Below are positions 24,001 through 61,493 of a stretch of 64,000 bases of DNA, piece after piece. The notes beneath the pieces are model-generated. The model had not been told where the DNA came from and did no database searches. It saw only the letters and a list, made by a program, of their open reading frames with translations. Within the stretch, counting starts at the first letter, position 1, and each line of letters starts with the position of its first letter. This stretch comes from Phycisphaerales bacterium (GTDB lineage: Bacteria > Planctomycetota > Phycisphaerae > Sedimentisphaerales > Anaerobacaceae). The stretch spans positions 3,150,149 through 3,214,148 of the forward strand of contig CP070675.1 of the NCBI GenBank assembly GCA_020352215.1, given 5' to 3'. Both the position numbers and the translations under genes were made by a program.

Positions 24001-24147
24001 CCGAAATGGGTCGTCCGGGAACGCAATCTCGTTCTTGCAGTATGGTGAAGTAATAGCCGGACCACGGGCAATCGCCGCAGCCATCACAAGAAGCAGAGCC
24101 GCAAGAAAAGCCCACGGCCTACCCAATGATTCCCATTCGCGGATCAT
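21013..24147 (-). CDS. Secreted dikinase-like protein: phosphohistidine swivel domain, PPDK-type ATP-binding domain, dockerin-like tail
   Basis: The 1044 residues start with a signal peptide (PWAFLAALLLVMAAAIARG). At about 262-285, SPSTPNSHVAILAKTFGVPF matches the phosphohistidine swivel domain of PEP-utilising enzymes, with His in NSHVAI. The PEP/pyruvate-dikinase nucleotide-binding domain follows: GGKASNFGIL (about 368), RFRSSTNVEDSEQFTGAGLY (about 475) and the closing DGKLVVKQVRQIPEP (about 700). The swivel-then-ATP order and the N-V-E-D...AGLYDS wording resemble plant glucan, water dikinase more than PEP synthase. Two dockerin-like EF-hands end the protein (GDLDDDEDADMTDYALFASK and ADLTGDGRVMPEDMCEF). 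GGAAGG precedes the ATG. A glycan-phosphorylating role is inference; ATP supply outside the cytosol is a problem for it. Confidence 0.75.
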   Translation of the reverse strand: MIREWESLGRPWAFLAALLLVMAAAIARGPAITSPYCKNEIAFPDDPFRVEGSSAAAPGWVKFTILLEPYDPNVVYFQDGHEYTFHYHFATELLEPFIGMTTEQFNQATLFRDGRKAILGAVILPPKGGDPPPPEYPEYGIQFVGHDVYDREEIARFFDVVKGSIVAEPGVQAFYFPSYEQLAAARANRDWFEEQGMPVSSPDRWAQGNTCYSTGWALGKLKYISGGHVNQAYLTGQLEPNDILLTDGVPAEVPFVAGIITLSPSTPNSHVAILAKTFGVPFVHLAVTGDADRATGLIGHRVVLRAYEKEGSSDVRLIDVEGVLDENAIADLLKLKAPPVLDIEPATDYGSYSSNADGLLPSDIKYFGGKASNFGILRTAIPEDSPVAVAFSFDLWKEFLDQQLATGNTLREEIEARLAPFTYPPSNMAQLSGVLNGIRSLFRDNSLTSFTPTQQQAIVGILQDPQYGFDPNKKIRFRSSTNVEDSEQFTGAGLYDSYSGCLADDLDGNTAGPCHCDPDNGNERGVFRAVRRVFASFYNDNAYLERLRHGVDEDSVGMALLVHHSFPDEIELANGVGTIHRRHSSSWAIDLVTQHGATSVTNPTDGSIPEHVSVQVYSFGAFPTLVRESNLVPLGAKVMRWQDDYEELVGLLVKVAERFSDVTGQTRFVFETEYKKVAPDGKLVVKQVRQIPEPNSSPTITPFLVNEAVEYCTFQGEFGDVFANHRLKSRWLMETKNLWLASDNLIDCLYAEVEFEYVADGRVRALTSTLPLLPRAAHKYDGVEITDEWVMHHLSNPRVCGLVATNIPIQVSAAESPILTLRDFGCLILKADHERAVPAWDWDGPKMTVSDSTRLCPCQEPQAGDLLQQRHFQGPNGVTITTSFYWPPPPKGFVVGYTAPLIRWVETVIEGHTSVPIILHGYYSQTYRPEHHNFDEHFLFEPRLEPGLSEALLAELRAQDIRLIHARGGMHSTEITTYGFEGESFLPGDLDDDEDADMTDYALFASKWLETACDTCGGADLTGDGRVMPEDMCEFADSWLVGTE

Positions 24148-36969: not shown

Positions 36970-38067
36970 TCACATACCCGTGGAGGCCAGCCATTCCGAA
37001 GCCATCAGGGCCAAGTCGAACATGTCCACGATGCAATCATCGTTGATGTCGCCCACTAACTCGCACAGATAAAGTGAGAAGGGCTGGTTACTGACATCGG
37101 CGATCCCAGGCCTCGTCGTACTGCTGGCTCGAACAAGGCAGTGGTCACTACGGATGATAGGCGCCAGCCAGTCGTATCGGCCGGCATTGCCGATATTGGG
37201 GGGAAAAACCTGCTGCCAGGTACTGCCGCCGTTTGTGGAGAACTCGATCATCACGTTGCCGATCGTGCCTTGGCTTTGCCATTCGACGGTCCATACTGCG
37301 CCGCCCGCCAAGAGTTCTGAACCATTGGGAGAAAGCACGGTAATGGAGGCCGGAGTGGGGGCAACGTTGCGAAGCTTGTCAAAGTGCTGCGCTCCCCAGC
37401 GGTTCGGCGCTCCGAAGGTGCTGAAATCGCTTCCATCGTCGTAGTCGGTCGAATCGGCGGTGACGGAAGAATCCGGGTTGCCTTCGAGCTGGAAAATCTC
37501 AGTGCCGCCGACTCCGCTTGCCGGACTGATGCCCTCACCCGCGGGTCCGAAGACCACCGCATTTGAGGCGTCCTTTATCATCAGTTGCCAGTCGTTAGCG
37601 CTGACCGGGAAGTTCGACTTTTCAATGAAGAGGCCGTCGCCATTGTCGTTTGCCTGAACGTTGATCCACCAGTCGCCGGCGGCAGGATCGTAGCTGGCAT
37701 CGCTTGGCAGATCTTCTGAGACCGTGATTATGGTGCCGCTTCGCAGGTCAGACCAGATGGCATGGTCGGTGAGGTCCAGGGTTTCATCAAAGACGCCGCC
37801 TTGAAAGATGTCGAGCCTCCAGCTTCTCATATCGAGATGATCGGTGATGACGACCAACTCGAACCAGTTGCCGCCGTTGCCGGGGATGCGGCCGAAGTAG
37901 CTGTCTGCCGCGCGGCCGCCGTCGTCGTCAGCCTCGGCTGTTCCACCATTCAGGAATTCCGACTTGCTGACGGCGTTGTATTCATTCAGGATCACGTCAG
38001 CTCCGAAGGCAGCCGGCCCCAGGAAAAGGACCAAGACCAGGATTTTCAGAGATCTGATCGCACACAT
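36970..38067 (-). CDS. Secreted lamin-tail-like protein with Ig-like domain and dockerin-like tail
   Basis: The 365-residue protein has a signal peptide (LKILVLVLFLGPAAFG). Next is a lamin-tail-like domain beginning DVILNEYNAVSKSEFL, with WFELVVITDHLDMRSWRLDI. An Ig-like stretch (ITVLSPNGSELLAGGAVWTV, EFSTNGGSTWQ) follows, and one dockerin-like EF-hand (VGDINDDCIVDMFDLALMAS) ends it. The ATG at 38067 follows GGGAGGAGC and precedes the signal peptide; the longer open frame to 38241 runs into tolC and is rejected. It is the last gene of the VTC/DUF4956/HlyD/TolC run, 115 bases after tolC. It is probably a surface or matrix protein. Confidence 0.78.
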   Translation of the reverse strand: MCAIRSLKILVLVLFLGPAAFGADVILNEYNAVSKSEFLNGGTAEADDDGGRAADSYFGRIPGNGGNWFELVVITDHLDMRSWRLDIFQGGVFDETLDLTDHAIWSDLRSGTIITVSEDLPSDASYDPAAGDWWINVQANDNGDGLFIEKSNFPVSANDWQLMIKDASNAVVFGPAGEGISPASGVGGTEIFQLEGNPDSSVTADSTDYDDGSDFSTFGAPNRWGAQHFDKLRNVAPTPASITVLSPNGSELLAGGAVWTVEWQSQGTIGNVMIEFSTNGGSTWQQVFPPNIGNAGRYDWLAPIIRSDHCLVRASSTTRPGIADVSNQPFSLYLCELVGDINDDCIVDMFDLALMASEWLASTGM

Positions 38068-38182
38068 ATGTACTGCTCCTCCCGAGTCAACCGACTGCCG
38101 CTGATCCATGACGCCACACGGGCCATTGCAGAGTAGCTGCGGCGTGTACCGTGCTATAGGCGCCTTTCTATTTGCGTTGTCC

Positions 38183-39889
38183 TTAGGAGGCGCCCAGCTG
38201 CCACATTCCGTCCGGGCGCACCCGAAGCGTTCCGGTGTCACGATAGAATTCCAACGTGGCGATAGTGAAGTCTACCAAGGCGTCCGTTGCGGCCTTCTGA
38301 GCGTCGAACAAATCGTCGCGGGCCTGAAGCACCCGGCGACTGCTTGCCCGCCCGTACTTCATCAACATAAATGTATTCTCGAAGCGTTTCTCCGCCAATT
38401 TGAGGCCTTCCGACTGTACACGATGGCGCTCTGCCGCTTCCGTGAGATCGCGGTAGGCCTGACGCACCTCTAACGTTACCATATCGGCTGCTTGGTCAGA
38501 CTCTCGCAGTCGCTGGTTCAAAGCTATCAGAGTTTTGCGATAAATATTCTGCTCCAAATCTCGGTCAAAAGGCAAATCCACAAGTAAACCAGACAAAAAC
38601 AAATCCTGCAAAGCCTTTGCATCTGATGAACTCAGTCCTTGCAATACTATATTGGTGTTCACACTTAGATCTAATTGAGTTCTGAGACCGTCGGCAGCTA
38701 CAAGCACTTTGCGTTGAGAATCAAAAATAGCATCAGTAGTGTTCGCAAGATCCAGACGGTGTAAAAGAGCAGTTTCGATGGCTTCATTCTCGGAGAAATC
38801 GGGGGGCGGTATCCCCGCTGCCTTCAGGTCATTGAGCACACTCTCGTCCAACTGGAATTCCGCTGTCGTCGGCAGACCCAGCGTAATCTTGAATTCGTCC
38901 AAGGCCTGCTCGTATTCCTTCGTTGCCTGCAAACAGACCTCACGGGCTCGAAGAATCTCTTGCCGAAGCCTGCCAACCTCCAACAGCGGCACGCGCCCTA
39001 CGCTCGCCAGCTTCTCCACATGCTCAGACAGTGCTGTAAGGCTCTTGTGATTGTCCTCGGCATTTCGCACCACATCATACAGTTCGAGAACCCGATAGTA
39101 CTGGCCGACAACCATCACAACGAACGTTTTGCGGAACCTATTGAACGACCGGACTTGATAGAGCACATCCCGCTCCGCCTGAGTCAAGGACTCCAGAACG
39201 ACTCTGCGGTCACTGCCGCGGAGAAGAGGTTTTGTTATTTCGAAACTCAGAAGTGATATGAGGCTTTCGCCCTTAAAAGCCCCATTCAGGATACGGCCCC
39301 ATGACAGAGCTACATTCGTTCCGATTCTGGTACCATCAGTCAGAAGTTGGTCAAAGCCGAATCCGTTGCTAACACCGAATTCATCTCCATCTAATGCTCC
39401 CTGTGGATCAACAGGAAGGTCCTGATCTGCTCTACGTGGACTAAACCGTGGTCCAAGACCAGATCCAGCACCCACATAATCAACACCTTTAGCCTTGGCG
39501 TATGTGCCTTTGAGTCTGCCGTAGTACAATCTTTCAAAATTGTGGCGTATCAAGTCTAAGTCTAGAGCTTTGATGTATAACGCTTCTTTTTGTGTTTGAT
39601 ATTCGCGATTGTGTGCCGTCGCCAGGGCAACCGCCTGAGGCAGAGTCAGGACGCCAAAGGAAGTAACCTCTTTTTCAATTACAATGTCGTTGGGTGATGG
39701 CACAGTGTCGCTGATCTTGTAGTTGGCCTTTGTGCCAAAATCATCCCTCCACTTGTAGTCGATGATATTGTAGACCTTCTCGTCGGCATCGGCCTTGTAA
39801 TTACGCCGGGCGCAACCCGAGAGCCCCAGGCCGACGAGGCCGGTGATAATCAAAAACGTTAGCTTCTTGGTGACGCTGTCGCAATTCAT
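38183..39889 (-). CDS. TolC-family outer-membrane lipoprotein
   Basis: The 568 residues start with a lipoprotein signal (LTFLIITGLVGLGLSGC). The rest has the TolC-type pattern: LTLPQAVALATAHNREYQTQ, then two long helical halves with heptad repeats (for example about 250-350 and 480-545). TolC proteins form trimeric outer-membrane channels with a periplasmic helical tunnel. The adaptor gene lies 83 bases upstream, so this should be the outer-membrane exit of that system. No pump gene is adjacent. The exported substrate is unknown. Confidence 0.85.
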   Translation of the reverse strand: MNCDSVTKKLTFLIITGLVGLGLSGCARRNYKADADEKVYNIIDYKWRDDFGTKANYKISDTVPSPNDIVIEKEVTSFGVLTLPQAVALATAHNREYQTQKEALYIKALDLDLIRHNFERLYYGRLKGTYAKAKGVDYVGAGSGLGPRFSPRRADQDLPVDPQGALDGDEFGVSNGFGFDQLLTDGTRIGTNVALSWGRILNGAFKGESLISLLSFEITKPLLRGSDRRVVLESLTQAERDVLYQVRSFNRFRKTFVVMVVGQYYRVLELYDVVRNAEDNHKSLTALSEHVEKLASVGRVPLLEVGRLRQEILRAREVCLQATKEYEQALDEFKITLGLPTTAEFQLDESVLNDLKAAGIPPPDFSENEAIETALLHRLDLANTTDAIFDSQRKVLVAADGLRTQLDLSVNTNIVLQGLSSSDAKALQDLFLSGLLVDLPFDRDLEQNIYRKTLIALNQRLRESDQAADMVTLEVRQAYRDLTEAAERHRVQSEGLKLAEKRFENTFMLMKYGRASSRRVLQARDDLFDAQKAATDALVDFTIATLEFYRDTGTLRVRPDGMWQLGAS

Positions 39890-39972
39890 ACAATTGGCGT
39901 CTCTTTTCCATTACCAAAGGTCTGACTTCCGTTTCGGCCGGCGGAGCCACGGGAGCGTCCCGCTTGCCAAAG

Positions 39973-41160
39973 CTACAGTCTGCGTACTCCCACCCTCTCG
40001 CCCACTACGAGCTTCATTTGAGGAGGGATCCGTATTCGGAACGGCCGGCCCCATTGGGGAAGGTTGGGATTTAGCCACAATCGTGGCGGCAATTGCTCGA
40101 CTGCCGGCCCGATCGACACAACCTCAGAACGTGCGATCTGTGCCGGGTCGGTCGGCTTTACGAGTTCCACAACCATCTTTTCACGCACCTGTCCAACCTG
40201 CTCCTCAGCCACGTACGCAACAATCTCTGTCGGTTTCGCGTCAGCTACCACAAGGATCTGATCGCCAGGTCGGACAACCTCGCCCGGGCGGCGCAGTGCT
40301 CTCTCGTCGGCCCGGGCCGACAGAGCCCGGTCCGCGCGATCAACAACTGAGACGACCACACCCGCCGCCGGCGCCCGCAACTCCAGCGGATCGGATCGCG
40401 CCACCAACTGATCTATCAGCCGCTCCTGAACCGCTATCTGTTTACGTATCACCTCGAGAGCACCGTCTATTGACGGGTGCTGCAACTGACGGTCGACAAA
40501 TTCGTCACGCCTCTCTCGTGCTTGGTCCAGATTAGCTCTCGCCTGCTCCAATAAGTGCCCGTTCTCTGCCATCTTCTCAGACAGGGCGTTGTACTGAGCC
40601 TGCAGTCTCTCAAGTTCATACGGCGCGATCGCATCCCGAAGGTCCTGGGAGATTTTGACCTCGACCCCAAGATCTTCCAGTGTGATCCGGTCGGAGGCGA
40701 TCAGCGCCCGCAATTCGAGTATCCGAAGCCTGGCGTTCTCAACGTCTGCGGAGAATCCCCGCCCATTTCTGACGCGGTCGGTCTCCAGGTTCGTGGCCTC
40801 TGCCTGCAGCTGTTCCTGCGTCGGAACAAGCTGAGCGGCCAGATGTTCAATCTGGGCAGCTACCACTGACAGTTCGGCCTGGATGTGTTCGTTGTCGAGC
40901 GTGGTATCGAGCACGGCCACAACTTGCCCTTGCTCAACATGCTCGAACAATTCCACGGGAATGCTCTTTATCCTGCCAGTACAACTGGCGGCAATCTCGT
41001 ACACACGACCTTGCGCCAGCCCCAATACCTCAAACCGCTGAGTGCGACTGTAGAACAGGCCGATCACCACCGCAACAGTCGCCAGCCACACCACGACCGG
41101 CATCACATGGTGCAGATACGCGCGTCTGGAGAAATGAGCTCTCGAGGGTTTTCTCTTCAT
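39973..41160 (-). CDS. HlyD-type periplasmic adaptor (membrane fusion protein)
   Basis: The 395 residues show one N-terminal membrane helix (VMPVVVWLATVAVVIGLFYS). The lipoyl-like first half is CTGRIKSIPVELFEHVEQGQ, a long coiled coil follows (about 85-240), and the second lipoyl half is LRAPAAGVVVSVVDRADRAL followed by PGEVVRPGDQILVVADAKPT. A beta-barrel part ends the protein. Such adaptors link an inner-membrane machine to TolC. It starts 7 bases after the DUF4956 gene, so the DUF4956 membrane protein is the nearest candidate for the inner-membrane partner (inference). Confidence 0.85.
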   Translation of the reverse strand: MKRKPSRAHFSRRAYLHHVMPVVVWLATVAVVIGLFYSRTQRFEVLGLAQGRVYEIAASCTGRIKSIPVELFEHVEQGQVVAVLDTTLDNEHIQAELSVVAAQIEHLAAQLVPTQEQLQAEATNLETDRVRNGRGFSADVENARLRILELRALIASDRITLEDLGVEVKISQDLRDAIAPYELERLQAQYNALSEKMAENGHLLEQARANLDQARERRDEFVDRQLQHPSIDGALEVIRKQIAVQERLIDQLVARSDPLELRAPAAGVVVSVVDRADRALSARADERALRRPGEVVRPGDQILVVADAKPTEIVAYVAEEQVGQVREKMVVELVKPTDPAQIARSEVVSIGPAVEQLPPRLWLNPNLPQWGRPFRIRIPPQMKLVVGERVGVRRL

Positions 41161-41167
41161 AAACGCT

Positions 41168-41863
41168 CTACACCTCCAGCAGCTGCTCCTGCATGGTCAA
41201 GCTGACGTTTTCGATCCCCTCGATTTTTTCGAGTTCAGCCATCATTAGCTCATTATTCGCGGCGTTTCGTATCATCAATTGGTAGGCATAGTCGGCTACG
41301 CCTCCGAAACCGGTATCCTGGACCGATATGAGGGTGAAGTTTCCGCAGAAACGCCTTAGGAGTGCGGGAATTGGGTGTTCGGGTCCAATATGGCCTCTGA
41401 AGCTAAACCGCAGGAATCCGTTGTGAGGTTGATGCGTCCCGAAGCTCGTCGCATAGAGATATACGGCAATCAGACACAGAATGATAGTCCCGATTATGGC
41501 CGTGGCAAATCGCTGTGAGCCCGTCGCCATCCCGACCACCAGCGAACAGAAGATGAAAGCAATGTCACGGGTATCCTTTATGATATTGCGGAAACGTATG
41601 AGCGCCAACGCCCCCATCAGTCCTACGGCGGTTACGATGTTGTTGCCGACGACGGTCATTACCATCGCAACGACAACCGTAATCAGAATAAGCGACTGCA
41701 CAAAGGATCTGGAATAGGACAGACCGCTGTGCGTGACATAGTACACCCAGGCCAAGACCTGGCCCAGGACAAATGCCAGCAGCAGTGACAGCAGTACAGT
41801 CTGGACAGAAAACGACCCTCCCATCGCGGAGGTTTCTTCCAGTACACGCCATACTCTATCCAT
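41168..41863 (-). CDS. DUF4956 membrane protein
   Basis: The 231 residues hold four to five membrane helices: VLLSLLLAFVLGQVLAWVYY, SLILITVVVAMVMTVVG, AVGLMGALALIRFRNIIKDT (the family hallmark), IAFIFCSLVVGMATGS and ATAIIGTIILCLIAVYLYA. A C-terminal soluble domain of about 85 residues follows. DUF4956 genes are often found next to VTC-domain genes (family knowledge). The start overlaps the VTC gene end; ATG 41863 is preferred over 41875 because a GGGG run precedes it. The function is unknown; a channel or scaffold for a polymer is a possibility. Confidence 0.88.
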   Translation of the reverse strand: MDRVWRVLEETSAMGGSFSVQTVLLSLLLAFVLGQVLAWVYYVTHSGLSYSRSFVQSLILITVVVAMVMTVVGNNIVTAVGLMGALALIRFRNIIKDTRDIAFIFCSLVVGMATGSQRFATAIIGTIILCLIAVYLYATSFGTHQPHNGFLRFSFRGHIGPEHPIPALLRRFCGNFTLISVQDTGFGGVADYAYQLMIRNAANNELMMAELEKIEGIENVSLTMQEQLLEV

Positions 41864-42716
41864 AGCCGACCCCATCAAACTTAGGTGCGCAAAATCCGAG
41901 TGCGCAGGATTGCTTTATCGAGGTTGCATATTTCGATATCGACCTGCTTCGCAAGTCGAAATGCCGGACCATACGGTTTAGCCACGCCGGATAACGGGCA
42001 GTGAACTTGACTTCCAAAATCACGTGCCCGAGCGTCAGGGAATTGCCCTGCCAACCTGAGCTGTTGAGCGTCACCTCAGGCTTACTGGTGATTTTATAGC
42101 ATAGCTCTCGGTCAAGAGTCACCCTCACCCTGTTCTCCGTGCCGCCTTCATAGGCTTGTCGCATATAGCGAATTAACACCGTCGGCCTGGCCATGATGCT
42201 GTTCATGTATAGCTGAAATTGGTTGAGCGATCGCTCGTCGGTCTTGTAATCCTGGGGTGCATAAGTCGCACCAGAGAGAAGCGCCTCCACATTTCGGTGC
42301 AGAACAGGTGCTCTACTCTTGAGAATGACGTTTGTGATACGGCGTTTGATCTCGAAGAAGCTGGGATAGTTGTGATCGTCACTGTAAGCGCGGACCCGCA
42401 GCTTGAAGCGATTCTTCAGCCCGCCCAAGCTCTCTCGGCAAAGCTGCAGGTTCTCCGAGTCCAGATAGAGACTCACAATGGGATAGAAACCGCCGGGTTG
42501 AAGTTTGCTGTACCGGTCCAGGCTCAAGTATAACTTTACATACTGGGCAATCGCCTCGGCCTTGGCCTCCGTAAGCAGGTACTTCAGCTCAAACCGGCAT
42601 CCGAGAGTACGGTCCACGTACTGACTGGCCTCCTCAGCGGTACCCGCCCCGCTCTTGTGCCGATGCCGGCCAGCTCCTTGCTTCGGTCTTTGTTCTGGCG
42701 ATTGAATCTCAGGCAT
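41856..42716 (-). CDS. VTC-domain (polyphosphate polymerase-like) protein
   Basis: The 286 residues match the tunnel-fold VTC domain known from the yeast vacuolar polyphosphate polymerase: CRFELKYLLTEAKAEAIAQY, GGFYPIVSLYLDSENLQLC, NRFKLRVRAYSDD, SFFEIKRRITNVILKSRA, VLIRYMRQAYEG, RVRVTLDREL, and HVILEVKFTARYPAWL. By eye, the Lys/Arg ring and the Glu expected in the tunnel are present. No membrane helix is seen, so it should be cytosolic. ATG 42716 has a weak AGG upstream; a GTG at 42785 is an alternative, but the extra residues look non-coding. Confidence 0.85.
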   Translation of the reverse strand: MPEIQSPEQRPKQGAGRHRHKSGAGTAEEASQYVDRTLGCRFELKYLLTEAKAEAIAQYVKLYLSLDRYSKLQPGGFYPIVSLYLDSENLQLCRESLGGLKNRFKLRVRAYSDDHNYPSFFEIKRRITNVILKSRAPVLHRNVEALLSGATYAPQDYKTDERSLNQFQLYMNSIMARPTVLIRYMRQAYEGGTENRVRVTLDRELCYKITSKPEVTLNSSGWQGNSLTLGHVILEVKFTARYPAWLNRMVRHFDLRSRSISKYATSIKQSCALGFCAPKFDGVGYG

Positions 42717-43083
42717 ATCGACCTGTGTTGCTCGGCAGCAATTACTGATGAAACAGCTCTTGCCGCTCTCGTCCGTATTTTGCACTCAGGGCCTTGTAGA
42801 CCGCGTCAGCGTACGCCTATCCACCCTTTTGGATGCGCAGAAGCATACTCGCGTTTGGTTGGTCCGGCCATACTGCGTCTTGTGCCTAATGCCCAACCCT
42901 ACGGCCTTACCTATTCTACCACATCAACGGCCCCTCAGTCAACAGTTTCTTACGGTCCAAAACAGGCAAATACAATTCCGTCATAGTGGGCCGCACGGAA
43001 CCAGCAGTGACAAACACACGAACCCGTAATAGCGGCCATAGCAATCATTTATCGGACAGTAAGGCCCCAATTGTGACACGCCT
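42717..43083. other. Intergenic region between cotH and the VTC operon
   Basis: These 367 bases contain the VTC promoter and no convincing gene. A weak extension of the VTC frame to 42785 cannot be excluded. No terminator hairpin with T-run was found after cotH. Confidence 0.5.
42913..42942 (-). promoter_or_regulatory. Promoter of the VTC/DUF4956/HlyD/TolC operon
   Basis: Read on the minus strand: TTGACT (42942-42937), an 18-base spacer and TAGAAT (42918-42913). The predicted leader is about 190 bases. The -35 box and spacer length are the same as in the cotH promoter. Confidence 0.6.
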
Positions 43084-46000
43084 TCAAGGGTTGGCTTTTC
43101 CGGGCGAGGGAGTGATTGCCTGCCAGTTGTTAGGGTCGTTGCCGTAGTGTTGTGGGAAAAGCCTGCTCAAAGTTGAGCCAAAACCATCGGCACCGGTAGG
43201 CCAGGGATCGACGCCCGAGGCGAAATCATCCGGATGCGAGCCGTCACTATACCTTACCCGATCTACTCGAATGTAGTGACGAACACCATCAACATCCACG
43301 TCGCCCGGCAAACTGATCTGTATCTTCTCGCCACCATTGTCCAACCGCCCGGCTCCCCAGGAGAATATCTGCGTATCGACCGGTGCAGTAAACTTCGAGC
43401 TGAATGTCGCCAGGTCTTTCACCATCAGGATATATTCACCAGATGCGACTGTCACAGGTGGCTCCGCCGGGAACAGAAATTCTATCCCGGGATTATCGGG
43501 ATCGTCCGTGAATCGCCACGGCTCGGCCGTCACGAAGTCGTACAGTGTAACATCAGCATCACTGATATTGAGAAGCTCAACATACTCAGCATCTGTAGGA
43601 CTATCCGGATGATACATGATCTCACTAATGACTATCGGCCCGACCTTTGGATAGGCATTGGCTGAGCCGGGCGTATTGACACTCATCGCAACAAAGTTGT
43701 ATGCGCCCGTGCTCTTCTGATACCGACCGAATGCGACCCCCGTCACGGATGCGCCGAACTTCTCCTGCTCACTGTAGCCTGTCAACTCACCATCCCGGCC
43801 GGAGTGCAAGTACAGGGTCTCGCCATTCTCGCTTAGACCAAAGGGCACGCGAGCCGCCCCACCACCGAAGTCAACATCTTCCGTAAAGACAATATATCCG
43901 TGCGCTGGGATCGACTTGCCATCGGCGATTTCATACTTTCTCAGGTCGGCATCATCGTCGCTGAGGAACCAGCCCCCGATGTTGATTGTATGGTCCGTCG
44001 TGTTGTGCAGCTCGATCCAATCTGGTGCGGCCGCGTGGGAATGGGCCAGGATTTCGTTGATGACCACATCGCCCAGCTCGGGGATCTGGCCCGTATCATC
44101 GGCGCCGGGCGAACCGCCTACATGGGCGCTCGGCCGCCACGTGGCTTTGTCACCCCACTGGCTGGGATGGGTACCCGCCGGGTCCTTGACGGTCAGTGAG
44201 AAGCCGTCACCATCTGTGATGTCGTACCAGCCATCCCTGTACCTGAACAGCTGTATTGTCGTGCCTATTGCGTCCTGCAGTTCAACTCTTTCGCCGCCAT
44301 TACGTAGACTCCCCGTGTATTGGCCGGCAATATTCAAACCCGCGCCGTATTTCGCCTCGAAAGCATTAACGTCTTTGACAACCAAGACGTATTCATCAGC
44401 CACAAGGTCCAGACGCGGGAAGACAAACTCAACTCCGTTGGTGAAATGGACAAGGTTAAGATTTATGGTCTCTGGCCCGACATTCTTGAGCTCGATGAAT
44501 TCTCTGTTCGGGTCATCAGGATGATTGGCGTCCTCGGGATTATACATGATCTCCGTGATGCGCAGATAATCCGCAACAGGGCCGATCGCAAAAATGGCCT
44601 CGTTCAGCGCGCTCCACGTAGAGCCACTTAGCACGCGTGCCTTGACCTGTGTGGTTTCAGTCAACGTGACCGGCCCGGTATACTTAAAGGCAGTGGGCGA
44701 AGAGCCGTCGCCAGGGGAATCGTCACTTGTACCGGCAACCAGTTCGGCAGAGATAACGAAGTCCGAGCTGGTTGTGGACGTGTTGAGGCCGTGAATAGCC
44801 AAGAGGTTGTCGCCCTGTCGCAGGTCGCCGATGTGGTCGGTCACGGAGAAGTCCTCCAGCCCGTCGGCTTCGTGGCTGCCGTCGGCCTCCGAGTCCCAGG
44901 TAAGCTCGTCAGGGGCCAGTGCCCGTTGGACTTCGACACCGTTGATGTAGGCGACGAAGCCATCGTCATAGCGCATCCTGAGCGTCAAGAATTCGAACTG
45001 ACTCGGATCCGAAATGACATTGAAGGGGATCCGAACGTAACAACTGCTGTTCTCGCCGTACATCTTCGATTCGAGGTCGAGGCTGATCAGCCCTTCGTAG
45101 CCGGAGCCTCTCTCGTAGCCCACACCACCAGGGCTGCCGGCCGAGACCATCCAGGACGAATCGTTGAAGGCACCGCCGCCCTTCCAGTTGTCACTGACCG
45201 GAACTGGCGGAACCAGGACCTTCTTGGCGGCGCTCTCGGCGACGAGCGTGGTAGTCGTGGTACTACCACCACCTGAACTTCCGTGCATGGGATCAGAACC
45301 ATCAAGGGTGTAGTAGATCGTGCCTATGGGGGCTGACATGTACAGACGGAACCCACTTGGCACATATCCTCCGTGCTGACTGAAAGTCGGCGCCGTGACG
45401 CTCGGATACAGGGGGGCGATACTGCCGTTTCTCATCCTGGTGGTCCTCAGCTGGCCGAGAAGAACGCCGGTCCGGCTGGGGAAGAAACCGTTGATTTCAT
45501 TGTTGATCGCACTGAGCCAGGTGTCCTTGTTGAGCCACGCGCTGCCCCAGCGGGCCGACTCTGCAATGATGGCCATGTCGATTTGCTGGCTACGGGCGCG
45601 GAAACGCGCTATGGCCCGGCTCGCAGTCAGCAGCCCGTTGTTGAAAAGATACTTATGCGCGCGGTCGGCAAAACGCATACGGTACTCTGCGTTGGCCATC
45701 AGTTCCTGGTGCATCCACTGGGGGTTGCTATACCGGAACTGGTCGCCGCACGAAAAGGGCCCGGTTCGGTCCCTCAGGCCCCTGGACATAATGTGCTCGG
45801 GATCGTGAACGAAGTAGCGAAATCCTTCGTTGCCATAGCGGTTGCGGATTCCATACCAGTTGTTGGTCCTGTTGTTGCCAAGGAACCAGGAGATGGGCGC
45901 ATCGCGATCACCGTCATAGAAGACCATGATCATATAATCGATCAGGTTATCGACGTCCAGCAGGACCTTATAATTGGGGTTCCGTGTCCCATCGGGATTC

Positions 46001-47862
46001 AAACCCTGGGCACGATAGTAGTTGTCGGGCTTTCCGAATCCAAGATTGGCCAGATCCCAAAGCTCTTGCCACGCGTCCATGTTGCCGTCGGTGGCCTCGA
46101 TAGTGTAGCCGCCACTATCACCGGTAGACTTGACGGTGTCGTATTCCTCTTGGTTGCCTCCAAAATACGAAGCCGCGTACGAAGCCTCGGAACGTTCCTG
46201 CGTCTGGAAAAGGCCCCAGTAGTGGCCGTTAATGTAGAGGTGATAGTATCGGCTTCGAGTGTAGGGCTGGCCCATCAGGCCTTGCGAGTCGCGGGCCCAG
46301 ACCTCACGACACATTGTATTGGCGCTGTCATTACCAAAACTCCAGGAATAGTTCTGGGAGGTACGAAGGTCAACCTTGTCGAAGCCATCCGCCCCCTCGT
46401 CGCCGAAGAGCGGATAGTCAAGCGCGCCGTCCCCATATTCGGGGCGGAAGAAGAAACGGAACGCATGCTTGGGGTTGTTTCCGCTTCGACTGTAACCTCC
46501 GCGTATTCTCAGGCCCGCATTTATCTGGAAACCATCGCGCATGTCACGAGGCAGTTCCCAGTGCACTGCTCCGTGACTATCAGTCACCTTCACCAAGTCA
46601 GGAAACCCGGGGCCCTCGGGATCGGGAGGATAGATCAACTCCAACGACGCGGGCCGCTCCCATGTACGACCGTGGCCGCGGGCGTTGACATAGATGCCTT
46701 TCTCGGAATCGAACAAGTTGCCCAGATCGGTCACGATGGACATCGTAGGGATCGAGGTCAGCGCCGCCTCAATCTGGCGCCCCCAAGTTGTGTGGTTCAC
46801 TATTGCCCGATCCATGCCATACTCCATTCTCTGGCCATTGATGCCGCTGCTCGGCCATCCAGGACCCGGCACCTGACCGTTTGGAGACTGGTTCTTGACG
46901 TCGCTGACGAAGATGTAGGTGTGTGTTTTCGCCCTGGAGGGCATCCAACCGTACTTGACGGCCTGGACCTTCAAGCAGGTCGTTCTGTCGATGGGAATCG
47001 GGCCCGTGTACAGCTTGCCGCCCGGACGACCTCGCTCTGAGCTGTAGGGATCAGTGCCGTCAAGCGTATAGTAGATGTTGCCTCCTTCCGTGGCCGTAGT
47101 GATCGTGACGGAGAACGGTGTCTCGTAGAAGCCCCGCTCGTGGCTAAGCCTTGGCTCGGCAACAACCCCTTGATAAATGCTAATGTTCGCGCCGCCCGGG
47201 GTGGGGAAAAACATCAGACGCCAGCTGGACATGGCATCGGGATAACGGCCATAGGACACGTTAGACGTCTGTTGGCCAAAAGTGACGGTGTCGATAACAG
47301 TGACACCATCTCTGGCGAAAAGCCCAAGCTCATCACCGCCTGCATCGATTCTGAAATTGGCGTGCAGGCCGGGGTCACCCACATCGTTGTCGGCCCATAT
47401 CAGAAGATACCCGTGTGGCTGGACCGTCGTTGTGGCAGGACTATCGTCAGGAATCCGCCACTTGGTCGGATCGTCAAGGTCGTCCGTCAGGTACATGCCG
47501 CCCATATCAACAGGTTCATCGCCAAGATTGTGGATCTCAATCCAGTCCTCGTACTCGCCCTGCGGGTCGATAACGTAGTTGAGGTTGGAAGCGCATAATT
47601 CATTGATTGCCAGCCCAGTGCCTGTTCGTTGCCAATCCTCCGCCAGCAGGGCAAAGTCCAACATCGCGACCCTGTCATCGCCGTCCAGATCGGCCGGGCT
47701 CTCAGGAGGATCCAGCCACCGCTCGGCAAGAAACTGAAGGTCTCCCGAGTCGACCCGGCAATCGTCGTTGAGGTCAGCTACAGGACAGAGGGCCCCGGCG
47801 GAGCCGGCGAAAGCCAGGCATAACGCCAGGGTCAGCAACAGCATTCTTGCACAATTTAGCAT
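43084..47862 (-). CDS. Giant secreted CotH-kinase protein with four lamin-tail domains
   Basis: The 1592 residues start with a signal peptide (LLLTLALCLAFAGSAGA) and two dockerin-like EF-hands (DLNDDCRVDSGDLQFLAERW and ADLDGDDRVAMLDFALLAED). Next are a lamin-tail domain (about 85-225), a chitobiase-type domain (IYYTLDGTDPYSS) and a CotH kinase domain (about 365-790). Kinase signs are LRIRGGYSRSGNNPKHAFRF, YYHLYINGHYWGLFQTQERS, VFYDGDRDAPISWFLGNN and RYFVHDPEHIM. A second chitobiase-type domain (about 835-1060) is split by a jelly-roll insert, and three more lamin-tail domains close the protein. CotH kinases phosphorylate secreted proteins in Bacillus spores; the target here is unknown. Confidence 0.9.
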   Translation of the reverse strand: MLNCARMLLLTLALCLAFAGSAGALCPVADLNDDCRVDSGDLQFLAERWLDPPESPADLDGDDRVAMLDFALLAEDWQRTGTGLAINELCASNLNYVIDPQGEYEDWIEIHNLGDEPVDMGGMYLTDDLDDPTKWRIPDDSPATTTVQPHGYLLIWADNDVGDPGLHANFRIDAGGDELGLFARDGVTVIDTVTFGQQTSNVSYGRYPDAMSSWRLMFFPTPGGANISIYQGVVAEPRLSHERGFYETPFSVTITTATEGGNIYYTLDGTDPYSSERGRPGGKLYTGPIPIDRTTCLKVQAVKYGWMPSRAKTHTYIFVSDVKNQSPNGQVPGPGWPSSGINGQRMEYGMDRAIVNHTTWGRQIEAALTSIPTMSIVTDLGNLFDSEKGIYVNARGHGRTWERPASLELIYPPDPEGPGFPDLVKVTDSHGAVHWELPRDMRDGFQINAGLRIRGGYSRSGNNPKHAFRFFFRPEYGDGALDYPLFGDEGADGFDKVDLRTSQNYSWSFGNDSANTMCREVWARDSQGLMGQPYTRSRYYHLYINGHYWGLFQTQERSEASYAASYFGGNQEEYDTVKSTGDSGGYTIEATDGNMDAWQELWDLANLGFGKPDNYYRAQGLNPDGTRNPNYKVLLDVDNLIDYMIMVFYDGDRDAPISWFLGNNRTNNWYGIRNRYGNEGFRYFVHDPEHIMSRGLRDRTGPFSCGDQFRYSNPQWMHQELMANAEYRMRFADRAHKYLFNNGLLTASRAIARFRARSQQIDMAIIAESARWGSAWLNKDTWLSAINNEINGFFPSRTGVLLGQLRTTRMRNGSIAPLYPSVTAPTFSQHGGYVPSGFRLYMSAPIGTIYYTLDGSDPMHGSSGGGSTTTTTLVAESAAKKVLVPPVPVSDNWKGGGAFNDSSWMVSAGSPGGVGYERGSGYEGLISLDLESKMYGENSSCYVRIPFNVISDPSQFEFLTLRMRYDDGFVAYINGVEVQRALAPDELTWDSEADGSHEADGLEDFSVTDHIGDLRQGDNLLAIHGLNTSTTSSDFVISAELVAGTSDDSPGDGSSPTAFKYTGPVTLTETTQVKARVLSGSTWSALNEAIFAIGPVADYLRITEIMYNPEDANHPDDPNREFIELKNVGPETINLNLVHFTNGVEFVFPRLDLVADEYVLVVKDVNAFEAKYGAGLNIAGQYTGSLRNGGERVELQDAIGTTIQLFRYRDGWYDITDGDGFSLTVKDPAGTHPSQWGDKATWRPSAHVGGSPGADDTGQIPELGDVVINEILAHSHAAAPDWIELHNTTDHTINIGGWFLSDDDADLRKYEIADGKSIPAHGYIVFTEDVDFGGGAARVPFGLSENGETLYLHSGRDGELTGYSEQEKFGASVTGVAFGRYQKSTGAYNFVAMSVNTPGSANAYPKVGPIVISEIMYHPDSPTDAEYVELLNISDADVTLYDFVTAEPWRFTDDPDNPGIEFLFPAEPPVTVASGEYILMVKDLATFSSKFTAPVDTQIFSWGAGRLDNGGEKIQISLPGDVDVDGVRHYIRVDRVRYSDGSHPDDFASGVDPWPTGADGFGSTLSRLFPQHYGNDPNNWQAITPSPGKANP

Positions 47863-48012
47863 CGTCTATCTCCTTCCTCAGTGAGGTTGCGCAGCCCCCC
47901 AGCGAGGTTTCTGTCCACTTAGAGACGTATTCGGCGCCTCAGTTCATGCAGCACAGACGCCCCACAGCCGGCGGACCCTAACAAGGCAGAGTCACAATGA
48001 AAAACCCTGTCT

Positions 48013-48042
48013 ATCTTAACACATTGGAGATAGCCAAGTCAA
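48013..48042 (-). promoter_or_regulatory. Promoter of the CotH gene
   Basis: Read on the minus strand: TTGACT (48042-48037), an 18-base spacer and TAAGAT (48018-48013). It lies between the Gfo/Idh stop and the CotH start, leaving a leader of about 145 bases. Confidence 0.5.
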
Positions 48043-49145: not shown

Positions 49146-50582
49146 TCACTTGACCTCTCCGCCCTCGATTCGATTGGGATCGCCCACGTCATTGGGACCG
49201 ATCTGACTCATCTGATCCGCAGGCGCCGGTTTCTTTTTGACCGACGTATAAATCTTGTAGCCAACGGCCCCGAAGGTCAGAAGAACCAGAGATGTCAGCA
49301 TGGCAATGAACCGGTTTTGAATTGACGCAGGCGACAGCTTCTTTTCTGAAACACGATTCGGATTCATAAAGCACCACGCGACAATGGCCACGAAATTGAT
49401 GCCCGCAGCAAACACAAAGAACGAATTGGCACTTCCCGTCCGTTCGTTCAGAAAGAGTGGGAACATGATGGCACTCAATGCCGCTCCAATATTCCCCACC
49501 ATGTTCATTGATCCCGAGACCGCGCCCGAATGAGCGCCGCCGATATCGTTGCAGAAGGCCCAGCTCGGGCTGAGCGTCATATCCACGCCGAACGTCGCCA
49601 GGCTAAAGCAAAAGACAAACCAGTACAGGTTGTCCGTGCGTGTCGCCAGAAGCAATCCGATCACGCCCAAGGCAAAGCCGACTATTGCCGTGACACGGCG
49701 TGAACTTACGTGGTAACCTCGCTTGAACAACTGTGTCACCATTGTCCCTGCAACCCAGTTCGCACAGGCGGCGAAGATCAAAGGCGTGGCCGAGAAGTAA
49801 ACGGCTCTCGGGTCATCCGGCCATTGGTTTTTCAGATATGAAGGCAGCCAGGTCAGGCTAATAAAGAACGTCACGTTACTGGCGAAGTACTGCACCATCG
49901 CCAGTGACATGTTCAGCGAGGTGAACACCTCGGCAAAAGAGGCCTTTACAGTCGCCGTGAAGTCACTGACGCGCCCGGATTCGATATACTCCAACTCGGC
50001 CTTATTAACCTTGGGATTGTCCTTCGGATTGTCACGGAACCAAATCAGCCAAACCGTCGCCCAGATAATGCCGATCAGGCCGTTGACCGCGAATGTCCAG
50101 CGCCATCCTATCTGCACAATCAACCACGGCATCAGAAAGAGTGAAAATGCAGCCCCCAGACGACTGCCGGAGAAGTTGATCCCGTGTGCAATGCCGCGAT
50201 CCTTTACGGGCAGCCAGCGGAAGAAGGCCTGCGTGGCGCCGGGAAAAGCCCCCGCTTCACCCACCCCAAAGAGAAATCGCAGGACCAGCATTTGTATTGC
50301 GTTTCGAGCCGCCCCGGTAAGGGCCGTGAACACGCTCCAGATGGACACCACGATGGTAAGTGCCTTACGCGGGCCGAGGCGATCGGCAATCCACCCAGAG
50401 GGCACCTGGAACAAGGCGTAACCCACCGCAAAGATGCCGAGCACCAGCCCCATCAGCTCACCTGATATGGACAGGTCTCTTTTAATATGGTCCACGGCAG
50501 ATGCGATGCAAGCGCGGTCCATGTACGTGTTGACGCTATGGAAAAAGAGAATGCCAATTAGGATAAAACGCTGGCGGCTCAT
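49146..50582 (-). CDS. MFS transporter, anion:cation symporter type
   Basis: The 478 residues show twelve membrane helices. NTYMDRACIASAVDHIKRDL and FAVGYALFQVPSGWIADRLG are typical of the ACS branch (ExuT/GarP/phthalate-type), which imports organic acids such as hexuronates. FGVGEAGAFPGATQAFFRWL is the family's helix-4 motif. The C-terminal 55 residues form a soluble tail after a last hydrophobic segment (MLTSLVLLTFGAVGYKIY). It lies 18 bases after the cyclase gene. The exact substrate is unknown; a sugar acid is the best guess from the neighbours. Confidence 0.9.
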   Translation of the reverse strand: MSRQRFILIGILFFHSVNTYMDRACIASAVDHIKRDLSISGELMGLVLGIFAVGYALFQVPSGWIADRLGPRKALTIVVSIWSVFTALTGAARNAIQMLVLRFLFGVGEAGAFPGATQAFFRWLPVKDRGIAHGINFSGSRLGAAFSLFLMPWLIVQIGWRWTFAVNGLIGIIWATVWLIWFRDNPKDNPKVNKAELEYIESGRVSDFTATVKASFAEVFTSLNMSLAMVQYFASNVTFFISLTWLPSYLKNQWPDDPRAVYFSATPLIFAACANWVAGTMVTQLFKRGYHVSSRRVTAIVGFALGVIGLLLATRTDNLYWFVFCFSLATFGVDMTLSPSWAFCNDIGGAHSGAVSGSMNMVGNIGAALSAIMFPLFLNERTGSANSFFVFAAGINFVAIVAWCFMNPNRVSEKKLSPASIQNRFIAMLTSLVLLTFGAVGYKIYTSVKKKPAPADQMSQIGPNDVGDPNRIEGGEVK

Positions 50583-58717: not shown

Positions 58718-58881
58718 GTCTTTTTTTCAAATATTTTTGAAAAAATTATATCGCTTGGCGCCCACGCCCATGCCGGATCAGCGCAAGATCTTCTGCTTGC
58801 GTGAGTTACGGCAGGACCTCGTCGCACAGATCCCAGACGCTCTCACGTCTCTGGACAACGCCTAAATGTGTCGGAATATCG

Positions 58882-58910
58882 TTGGGTGCCCTTGCCGCGT
58901 GCTGTATACT
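58882..58910 (+). promoter_or_regulatory. Possible promoter of the GH9 gene
   Basis: TTGGGT (58882-58887), a 17-base spacer and TATACT (58905-58910). The leader before the ATG at 58993 would be about 75 bases. The -35 box is weak. Confidence 0.4.
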
Positions 58911-58992
58911 GCCGGTCATGCACAGTGCAAGTTTGACTGATTTGCCCCACTTGGGAACGCTCAGGAGGTGGCGTGGGCAAGGAGACAAGACT

Positions 58993-61338
58993 ATGCGACT
59001 ACCCACACTTTTGGTGAGTTTGCTGACAACCGCTCTGGTTACGTCGAATGTGATCGGGTCCGCCAAGCTCTTGCACGTCGGCACGGTTGCGCCGGACGTC
59101 ATCGGCCTTACGATCAGTGACGGCAGAGGAGCTGAATACGGCCGGCAAATCCCCTACAAGCCACATCCGGACGACAAGATTACGGAGCCCCAGAAAGACC
59201 GCTGGGTTACTCGAAAAGGAACTGCTATCGGTTCCCTCGTTGGCCCCGAGGCCAAGATCCTGGGTACGTTCTCTCGGCTTGTCGGCGAACCCTTCGACAT
59301 TGTCCCCGCCACAAAGCCCGGCAATTGGGCGGTGACCTCGCTGGATGACGACATATACGAACCCGGAAAACGCGTGCGTCCTACAGCCGTCTGTCGCAAG
59401 TCCAAACCCACGGACCTGCTGCGGGTCGCTCCATGGGATTGGGCTGCGCCAGTAGAACACACCCTGTACCTCAAGCTCCCGAGCCCTCTGACACAGGGAA
59501 AACACTACACGATTAAGCCTGGAGGTATTTCACTCGATCCAATCGAGTTTGCATGGGAGCCCGCCGACCAGCGCAGTGAGGCCGTGCACATTAGCCACAT
59601 AGGATTCCGCCCCGATGATCCCGCCAAGGTGGCATTTCTATCGTGCTGGCTTGGAGATGGAGGCGGCCTGTCATACCCAGAGGCACTCAAATTCCACGTT
59701 GTGGACACTGAGACACACAGAAGAGTTCTCAGCGGCACGATCTCCCTCGCCAAGGGCGCCAATGACAAGACCGAGGATGCATACAAGCGGAACTACAACG
59801 GGGCTGACGTATACGAGATGGACTTTTCAGCTCTGCGAGAACCGGGCACGTACAGAGTCTTCGTCGAATCTGTCGGGTGTTCGTGTGCGTTTCGGATTGC
59901 GGATGATGTTTGGCGTAAGGCGTTCACTGTCTCTGCTCGCGGCTTCTACCACCAGCGAAGCGGCATTCCGCTGGGCCCACCCTATACCGATTTCAAACGA
60001 CCACGGCCATTTCATCCCGAGGCTGGCATGAACGTGTACGCGTCCACGACCCCTATTATGGACAGCGGAAACGGCCTGAACCAGAGCGACTCGAACTTCG
60101 GCAATCTCAACAAGGGCAGAACAAACGAAATCGTGCCAAACGCATGGGGCGGGTACATGGACGCCGGCGACTGGGACCGGCGCATCCAGCACCTCGATGC
60201 GACCCGGCTGCTGCTCGACCTGGCGATCCTCTTCCCTCGCTATTATGAGACGCTGTCGCTCAACATTCCCGAATCGCGTAACACACTGCCCGATGTCGTG
60301 GACGAGGCACTCTTCAATCTGGATTGTTACCGCCGTATGCAGACGCCGGAAGGCGGCATTCGTGGCGGGATCGAGTCCGCTGAACACCCTGCTCATGGCG
60401 AGGGAAGCTGGCAGGAATCGCTGCCGGTCATGGCCTATGCGCCGGGCGTCTGGTCCAGCTATGTCTACGCCGGCACCGCAGCCCGCGCCGCGCTCTGTCT
60501 GAAGTCACGTCATCCCGAACTCGCCTCCGAGTATCAAGAAAGCGCACTTCGCGCGATGCACTGGGCCGAGACGGAGTTGCCTCGTCGCAAGGACAAGGTA
60601 CCTCACCAAGTCCACGATGCCAGAAACCTCGCCGCCCTCGAGTTGCTCAGATTGACCGGCCATACTCAGTGGCACGACATCTTCCTTGCCACCACGGTCT
60701 TCAAAGACGCCAAAGCCGACCTCTTCGTGTGGCAAGACCACGAACAACGCGAGGCCGCGTGGGTCTACACCCGCATGGACCCATCCAGAACCGACGCGGA
60801 CGTACGGACCAACTGCCGCAATGCCATCCTTCGCGAGGCCGATCAGCGAGTGAAGCAATGCGGGCAAACGGCCTTTCGATGGACAAAGTACCCCTGGGCA
60901 CCGACTGCATACGGAATCCTCTCGAGTCCGGATGCTGTAAGCCTGGTGCGAGCGCACCTTCTTACGGGCAAGGTCCGCTACCTTCGCGCCGCGGTCCTGG
61001 CATGTCAGACCGGCCTCGGCGCAAATCCGGTCAATATCTGCTACACGACGGGCCTCGGCCACCGCTGGCCCCTGCACCCGCTGCACATAGACTCGCGTAT
61101 CTCCCTGCAGTCGCCACCGCCGGGCCTGACCGTATTCGGGCCCGTCGATCCTCAGGTGGACAGCCAGAAATGGGCACGAGACCTCGTCGACCGCTTCTGC
61201 TATCCGCCAGCAGCGGAGTGGCCTACCATAGAGGCATACTGGGATGTCTTCTGGTACCCGGTCGTCTGTGAATTCACAATCCACCAGCCGATGGCAGCAA
61301 ACGCCTACGTCTGGGGATACCTCGCGGCAAGGCCCTGA
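58993..61338 (+). CDS. Secreted glycoside hydrolase family 9 protein
   Basis: The 781 residues begin with a signal peptide (LPTLLVSLLTTALVTSNVIG). A CelD-type N-terminal Ig-like domain follows (about 220-310, with VHISHIGFRPDDPAKVAFLS). The (alpha/alpha)6 GH9 domain starts near residue 320. Its catalytic Asp motif is YMDAGDWDRRIQH; LGANPVNICYTTGLGHR and the C-terminal VVCEFTIHQPMAANAYVWGY give the conserved loop and probable acid Glu. GH9 enzymes mostly cut beta-1,4-glucans. GGAG precedes the ATG at 58993; the frame extends to 58801 but the signal peptide fixes this start. No dockerin-like tail is present. Confidence 0.85.
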   Translation: MRLPTLLVSLLTTALVTSNVIGSAKLLHVGTVAPDVIGLTISDGRGAEYGRQIPYKPHPDDKITEPQKDRWVTRKGTAIGSLVGPEAKILGTFSRLVGEPFDIVPATKPGNWAVTSLDDDIYEPGKRVRPTAVCRKSKPTDLLRVAPWDWAAPVEHTLYLKLPSPLTQGKHYTIKPGGISLDPIEFAWEPADQRSEAVHISHIGFRPDDPAKVAFLSCWLGDGGGLSYPEALKFHVVDTETHRRVLSGTISLAKGANDKTEDAYKRNYNGADVYEMDFSALREPGTYRVFVESVGCSCAFRIADDVWRKAFTVSARGFYHQRSGIPLGPPYTDFKRPRPFHPEAGMNVYASTTPIMDSGNGLNQSDSNFGNLNKGRTNEIVPNAWGGYMDAGDWDRRIQHLDATRLLLDLAILFPRYYETLSLNIPESRNTLPDVVDEALFNLDCYRRMQTPEGGIRGGIESAEHPAHGEGSWQESLPVMAYAPGVWSSYVYAGTAARAALCLKSRHPELASEYQESALRAMHWAETELPRRKDKVPHQVHDARNLAALELLRLTGHTQWHDIFLATTVFKDAKADLFVWQDHEQREAAWVYTRMDPSRTDADVRTNCRNAILREADQRVKQCGQTAFRWTKYPWAPTAYGILSSPDAVSLVRAHLLTGKVRYLRAAVLACQTGLGANPVNICYTTGLGHRWPLHPLHIDSRISLQSPPPGLTVFGPVDPQVDSQKWARDLVDRFCYPPAAEWPTIEAYWDVFWYPVVCEFTIHQPMAANAYVWGYLAARP

Positions 61339-61397: not shown

Positions 61398-61493
61398 CAG
61401 GGACAGCAGGCCCGACCCGCCGCTGTGAATGAGCAAGACATGTAGTTGCAGCCGTCGCAGTCTGGGAATGGCCCCGGACAGAGGAGGTTTCTC
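61398..61493 (+). promoter_or_regulatory. Candidate cobalamin-riboswitch-like leader
   Basis: The leader contains ACCCGCCGCTGTGA (61415-61428) and later CTGGGAATGGC (61462-61472). Both resemble conserved parts of the cobalamin riboswitch core (CCCGCnnCTGTGA and GGGAAGGC). The part before the first motif is much shorter than in the standard element, so this would be a reduced or variant form, or a chance likeness. GGAGG of the DUF362 gene lies at the end of the leader (61483-61487). Confidence 0.3.

Follow-up and report, generated by a model that had tools for sequence, protein, structure and literature searches.

How might a bacterium with two membranes deliver a phosphate polymer made in the cytosol to its surface, and which proteins would carry it there? 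The question is raised by a locus in a 64,000-nucleotide stretch of DNA from a Phycisphaerales bacterium (contig CP070675.1, positions 3,150,149 to 3,214,148; the whole of this stretch is hereafter the window). The locus is transcribed on the minus strand in the order CotH, VTC, DUF4956, HlyD, lipoprotein TolC and LTD/dockerin-like, so that a VTC polyphosphate polymerase-type protein, a DUF4956 membrane protein, a HlyD-type periplasmic adaptor and a TolC/OEP-family outer-membrane lipoprotein are encoded one after another between two genes for secreted proteins. To our knowledge, the surface placement of polyphosphate by bacteria is an unsolved problem. We put at roughly one half the probability that the operon encodes a synthase-driven trans-envelope exporter, or conduit, for polyphosphate. 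The original prediction, which had been made from the sequence of the locus, had proposed export of a polyphosphate-like polymer with DUF4956 in the place of a pump, and our analysis supports this interpretation as the leading hypothesis, with polyphosphate as the presumed polymer.

In the mechanism that we propose, the VTC protein would use ATP to build a phosphate polymer on the cytosolic side of the inner membrane, as its homology and intact active site suggest, and DUF4956 would carry the nascent polyanion through that membrane. An Arg-Phe-Arg motif and neighbouring Lys and Arg residues at a helix end of DUF4956 are predicted to face the cytosol, and the ACT-like domain of the same protein may gate passage in response to a metabolite. 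The polymer would then be handed over to HlyD, which would span the periplasm, and to the TolC-family protein, which would open the outer membrane, the driving force being polymerisation or ion gradients and not an ABC, RND or MFS pump. Once outside, the polymer would meet the secreted CotH kinase and the LTD/dockerin proteins, which would act on it or with it.

A VTC-type polymerase beside an MgtC-related membrane protein

The VTC protein (309 residues; positions 42785..41856, minus strand), whose VTC domain spans residues 64-292, scores 127.7 bits against PF09359 (cut-off 23; E 7e-37), and the profile of its family matches the structure of yeast VTC4 (3g3q) at E 3e-27. All 13 active-site positions that were compared are identical in the two proteins: K68, R130, R132, E145, K147, K156 and R158 of the window protein correspond to K200, R264, R266, E279, K281, K294 and R296 of VTC4, and R209, R221, D225, E258, K260 and K285 to R361, R373, D377, E426, K428 and K458. 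The basic tunnel residues and metal-binding Glu of VTC4 (K200, R264, R266, K281, K294, R361, R373, E426, K428 and K458) are all among them, and substituting R264, R266 or E426 impairs catalysis of the yeast enzyme (PMC9911596). Loss of the catalytic basic residues, which the original prediction had named in advance as evidence against itself, did not occur, every aligned residue being kept. Judged by this homology, the window protein is expected to make polyphosphate chains. The yeast VTC complex makes polyphosphate and translocates it in one coupled process, by way of a membrane channel (PMC9911596) and along a path of positive charge, and the bacterial arrangement may thus be functionally analogous, with a different membrane part. 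Among 14 control genomes, the VTC and DUF4956 profiles match the same three (Bacteroides ihuae, Corynebacterium glutamicum and Methanosarcina acetivorans), which points to tight co-occurrence of the two families beyond diderms too. Neither PPK1 nor PPK2 was found at E 1e-3 in the genome that holds the window, whose marker completeness is about 90%.

The candidate membrane partner of the polymerase is the DUF4956 protein (236 residues; 41878..41168, minus strand; PF16316, E 6e-14). Its structural model (predicted local distance difference test score, pLDDT, 87.7) comprises an N-terminal helix, five membrane-type helices and a C-terminal domain. Structure searches with the full-length model matched the C-terminal domain only (best Foldseek E 3e-3), a beta-alpha-beta-beta-alpha-beta arrangement that resembles ACT and other ferredoxin-like folds with a VIA Z of up to 10.4 over 82 residues (root-mean-square deviation, rmsd, 2.4), the fold being a very common one. 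The membrane domain alone gave a best Z of 5.6 over 98 residues (rmsd 4.3), which is uninformative on the novelty of its fold. Alignment of the MgtC and DUF4956 profiles with hhalign gave a probability of 97.7 and an E value of 2.5e-12 over 113 columns, and a Pfam MgtC search also picked up the DUF4956-type genes of four relatives, below the cut-off. Since DUF4956 proteins score 20-25 bits against PF02308, under its gathering cut-off of 31.4, they are filed as MgtC-related and not as MgtC members. By profile comparison, then, DUF4956 is a distant relative of MgtC with a membrane domain of common ancestry, and this relationship, together with the C-terminal ACT/ferredoxin-like domain, is new here.

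Arg95-Phe96-Arg97 (codons 41588..41596, minus strand), at the end of predicted helix 3, is invariant in the DUF4956 alignment; Lys101 and Arg104 are nearly so, and the MgtC sequences aligned here are without the motif. In loci from the scan of the Genome Taxonomy Database (GTDB) described below the motif is present by construction, the scan pattern having contained RFR, and the loci drawn by VTC are the independent observation. The ACT-like nature of the C-terminal domain suggests that it is cytosolic; if it is, Arg-Phe-Arg would lie at the cytosolic end of helix 3 in the model, where a polyanion from VTC would arrive.

The HlyD-type adaptor (395 residues; 41160..39973, minus strand) matches HlyD_3 (PF13437; E 2e-10, 41.8 bits against a cut-off of 22.2) and has a hydrophobic stretch near its N-terminus, a predicted single N-terminal membrane helix. 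The TolC/OEP-family lipoprotein (568 residues; 39889..38183, minus strand) matches PF02321 (E 2e-14, 54 bits against a cut-off of 22) and has a lipobox with Cys26 (LSGC), and its family profile matches the solved TolC structures 7ng8 and 1ek9 at E values of about 1e-6 to 1e-5. The VTC and DUF4956 genes overlap by 23 base pairs (bp), DUF4956 and HlyD are 7 bp apart, HlyD and TolC 83 bp, and 115 bp separate TolC from the probable start of the last gene. The gene list of the original prediction was correct, with all the minus-strand genes present and, except for the last, assigned to families by Pfam; the CotH gene, which it had kept separate, ends 298 bp upstream of VTC in this genome, and given that spacing the membership of CotH in the operon is unproven.

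Distribution of the DUF4956-HlyD pair

Is the joining of HlyD and TolC to VTC and DUF4956 a peculiarity of one genome? We fetched 60 VTC loci of other Planctomycetota genomes from a search of 392, and a DUF4956 profile scan of 84,980 species genomes in GTDB gave a further 80 loci; near-duplicate loci (L040/L100, L065/L106 and L072/L073/L076) slightly inflate the counts. Of the 60 Planctomycetota loci, 55 contain DUF4956 and 26 have HlyD directly after it. In the GTDB-wide set, 38 of 80 loci have HlyD on the strand of DUF4956 and no more than 200 bp away from it; they come from Planctomycetota, Acidobacteriota, Verrucomicrobiota, Lentisphaerota, Kiritimatiellota, Fibrobacterota, Spirochaetota, Delongbacteria, Bacteroidota, Balneolota and Pseudomonadota. 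About a dozen bacterial phyla have the pair, and 65 of the 70 HlyD-family matches in all fetched loci lie within 200 bp of DUF4956. One Desulfobacterium locus has the order HlyD-X-VTC-DUF4956. Confinement of HlyD beside VTC and DUF4956 to this genome, the other result named in advance as damaging to the proposal, is ruled out by the 26 and 38 loci, and the notion that HlyD and TolC are unique to this genome was rejected on loci in other Planctomycetota and in further phyla. The original prediction had also looked to conservation of the five-gene order across Phycisphaerae; the HlyD-DUF4956 pair extends over phyla, and TolC is adjacent in part of the loci only.

A maximum-likelihood tree of 131 DUF4956 proteins contains one branch (support 100/98) that splits 69 rows, 65 of them with HlyD, from 62 rows, none of which has HlyD. 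The 69 include Planctomycetota, Acidobacteriota, Verrucomicrobiota, Lentisphaerota, Kiritimatiellota, Spirochaetota, Fibrobacterota, Bacteroidota and others. Two of the four HlyD-less members of the larger clade are at contig ends (L111 and L078) and another has HlyD on the other side of VTC in the same operon (L121), which leaves L089 as the only real exception. The HlyD/TolC addition, which the original prediction had called the unusual part, is no local oddity; HlyD belongs to one DUF4956 clade only. All monoderm loci (Clostridia, other Firmicutes, Mycoplasmatota, Chloroflexota and Actinomycetota) fall on the HlyD-less side of the tree. HlyD stands beside DUF4956 in 0 of 17 monoderm versus 36 of 58 diderm loci of named origin (nominal Fisher p 2e-6, which is only a guide because the loci were sampled in order of similarity and envelope type is confounded with clade). 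Thus both envelope types have a core of VTC and DUF4956, usually with CotH, to which one diderm DUF4956 lineage joins an adaptor in the periplasm and, in many of its members, a channel in the outer membrane.

A TolC-like gene follows HlyD in about half of the HlyD-bearing DUF4956 clade. In Planctomycetota loci with the gene order of the window it is of the window's own TolC type, and OEP/TolC-like genes also follow HlyD in Acidobacteriota, Fibrobacterota, Spirochaetota, Delongbacteria, Bacteroidota and others. Only 2 of 10 TolC-like genes of Bacteroidota, Fibrobacter and others match Pfam OEP; the link of these genes to TolC comes from where they lie, how large they are and a moderate hhalign score (P 67, E 5e-5), while a PDB search with their profile gave no TolC.

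Other layouts were also seen. In four loci of one Planctomycetota family (L043, L047, L048 and L054), DUF4956 and VTC lie 2.9-3.8 kb apart. L043 has two genes in that interval, one for a TPR protein with a membrane anchor and one for a CotH/beta-helix protein, and HlyD is absent; this layout is a possible alternative to the HlyD module. The genome of L032 has a second VTC-DUF4956-HlyD operon (L031; G057:C36) without TolC, directly upstream of genes resembling those for type II secretion or a type IV pilus.

Cargo, driving force and known counterparts

The operon encodes no ABC, RND or MFS pump, and none of these is among the 25 commonest Pfam families of the 105 genes that flank HlyD-bearing modules, where the only clearly recurrent functional families are LTD (12) and CotH (11). 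An MFS gene in the window (49146-50582), two genes upstream of CotH, is an ordinary MFS_1, and an unlinked pump is possible. Seven loci in Bacteroidota and Balneolota have a DUF4956-HlyD-TolC-like triad with no VTC adjacent to it. The proposal that DUF4956 fills the pump slot gains from both results, no pump being conserved in the flanks and the Bacteroidota triad standing alone; this separable triad is the best evidence in support of DUF4956 as the inner-membrane partner of HlyD.

The same triad is the best reason for caution about the substrate, and it is one of the observations that weigh against a polyphosphate exporter. Four of the seven triad genomes, including that of the isolate Neolewinella persica, have no detectable VTC, so the substrate need not be VTC-made. 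Many diderm VTC-DUF4956 loci are without HlyD, and TolC adjoins in only 9 of the 26 HlyD-bearing Planctomycetota loci. The DUF4956 membrane domain has no convincing relative among solved structures (best Foldseek E 1.0), and MgtC is known as a regulator and not as a transporter. The other three triad genomes carry VTC elsewhere, in the two inspected beside another secreted-type gene. PPK1 is present in all seven, and polyphosphate may still be the cargo, although PPK1 is common and proves little. In two Saprospiraceae loci (L195:1483-3602 and L196:1486-3609), a short VTC gene (208-210 residues) comes right after a gene of about 500 codons, which possibly encodes the C-terminal portion of a protein that resembles CotH and has a beta-helix region; the L195 protein has no Pfam match.

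One alternative is that DUF4956 is an MgtC-like regulator, in which the ACT-like domain senses phosphate, Mg or a nucleotide and controls VTC, with HlyD and TolC serving an unlinked pump and being co-transcribed as their cargo is needed in the same condition. MgtC in Salmonella regulates ATP synthase and phosphate signalling, and DUF4956 has both the MgtC relationship and an ACT/ferredoxin-like domain. We nevertheless regard it as unlikely: HlyD tracks one DUF4956 clade over about a dozen phyla and persists without a local VTC, which ties HlyD to DUF4956 itself, and no pump gene recurs nearby. It is also conceivable, if somewhat improbable, that the system secretes a small molecule rich in phosphate, a protein, or a polysaccharide of the cell surface that receives phosphate through VTC and CotH, with VTC, DUF4956 and CotH forming an accessory set that modifies an exopolymer. 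The VTC-less triads would fit such a cargo, as would the cotH-PPP-DUF4956-DUF4832 set already noted beside pelDEADAFG in Gram-positives, both streptococci and clostridia (PMC7112168). However, the VTC active site fits a polyphosphate polymerase in detail, and the immediate neighbours of the locus in the window include no pel gene, DUF4832 or glycosyltransferase, being leuS downstream and Gfo/Idh oxidoreductase, MFS transporter and cyclase genes upstream.

Chance or lineage-specific co-location of unrelated genes could be read into the 298 bp between CotH and VTC and into the inconstant presence of the TolC and LTD genes. This is very improbable, and for VTC-DUF4956-HlyD it is refuted by overlapping or few-base spacing and recurrence over many phyla. 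The genome, a single contig of 6.2 Mb with its nearest relatives among Phycisphaerales and Sedimentisphaerales genomes (Planctomycetota), holds one VTC, one DUF4956, about 11 HlyD_3 and about 12 OEP genes. With 11 HlyD genes on such a contig, chance alone would make the gene next door HlyD well under 1% of the time.

The exporter that we favour would share features with several known systems. With the yeast VTC complex (Vtc4 with the Vtc1/Vtc3 channel) it has in common the catalytic domain family, the active-site residues, a membrane partner beside the polymerase and, in the proposed mechanism, the coupling of synthesis to translocation modelled for yeast (PMC9911596); it differs in having no SPX domain, a separate MgtC-like membrane protein, and HlyD and TolC across two membranes. 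The trio of CotH, VTC-type polymerase and DUF4956 is that of the pel-cluster set (PMC7112168), but that set is monoderm, lies beside Pel genes and is without HlyD/TolC, which are added here. As in the tripartite exporters of type I secretion and of RND and MFS efflux, an adaptor and a TolC-family channel share one operon; unlike in those systems, DUF4956 stands where the pump would be. In synthase-dependent secretion of the exopolymer alginate by Alg44/AlgE, a polymerase at the cytosolic face likewise feeds a conduit with a HlyD-like periplasmic part, whereas here the polymerase is of VTC type and not a glycosyltransferase, and the outer-membrane part is TolC-like. Compared with MgtC/SapB, with which it shares a membrane domain of detectable common ancestry, DUF4956 falls below the Pfam cut-off, has Arg-Phe-Arg and keeps a fixed partnership with VTC and HlyD.

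CotH and the cell surface

The giant secreted CotH protein (1592 residues; 47862..43084, minus strand), identified by its Pfam matches, has a CotH domain at residues 451-776 (PF08757; E 8e-13). It also holds four LTD stretches, CHB_HEX and a marginal dockerin match, with chitobiase/Fn3-associated domains besides the LTD repeats and a dockerin-like N-terminal part. A single-sequence PDB search with the giant protein gave no match, but the profile of the CotH family found 5jd9, the structure of B. cereus CotH, at E 2e-37. The Lys, Glu and both Asp positions of the window CotH align with 5jd9, and the protein is thus probably an active kinase. It may act otherwise than by the protein modification that the original prediction had envisaged. 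Extracellular ATP is scarce where secreted CotH acts, and it is a speculative possibility that exported polyphosphate serves as the phosphate donor. The spacing between CotH and VTC is often 2-22 bp in relatives. Counts of CotH from our home-made profile are upper bounds, as the profile also matches LTD and related repeats; the 11 CotH genes among the 105 flanking genes are a Pfam count.

The last gene of the operon (frame 38241..36970, minus strand; probable ATG start 38067) encodes a secreted LTD-like protein with a dockerin-like motif at its end. It has no Pfam match, and its lamin-tail/dockerin label comes from reading of the sequence. Two relatives (L095 and L096) conserve the gene after TolC. 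Elsewhere in the window, a second large frame (61446-64000, plus strand) matches the home-made CotH/LTD profile at 192 bits and runs off the window end; a gene for a family 9 glycosyl hydrolase (58801-61338) lies upstream of it. A 1044-residue protein (21013-24147, minus strand), which has a central pyruvate phosphate dikinase ATP-binding domain, is a weak match to the same profile, at 67 bits.

In the literature searched, with subscription papers and preprints outside the search, we found no report of the HlyD/TolC extension, of its clade-wide conservation or of the DUF4956-MgtC relationship. For bacterial VTC, DUF4956 with CotH, and polyphosphate export it yielded only PMC7112168 and a pathogenicity-locus listing (PMC2879425), and it reported no bacterial polyphosphate exporter. 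A module that extends over about a dozen phyla names candidates for the polymerase, an MgtC-like membrane partner, the adaptor and the outer-membrane channel, and it gives a testable role to DUF4956, which this literature seldom mentions, and a possible answer to how secreted CotH kinases obtain a phosphate donor outside the cell. The boldest form of the proposal, in which the module is a widespread dedicated polyphosphate exporter of diderms, DUF4956 founds a class of MgtC-like polyanion translocases and polyphosphate is the phosphate donor that secreted CotH kinases otherwise lack, is rather unlikely. If the exporter reading is true, polyphosphate or a polymer like it would be driven across the inner and outer membranes of these bacteria and out to their surface.

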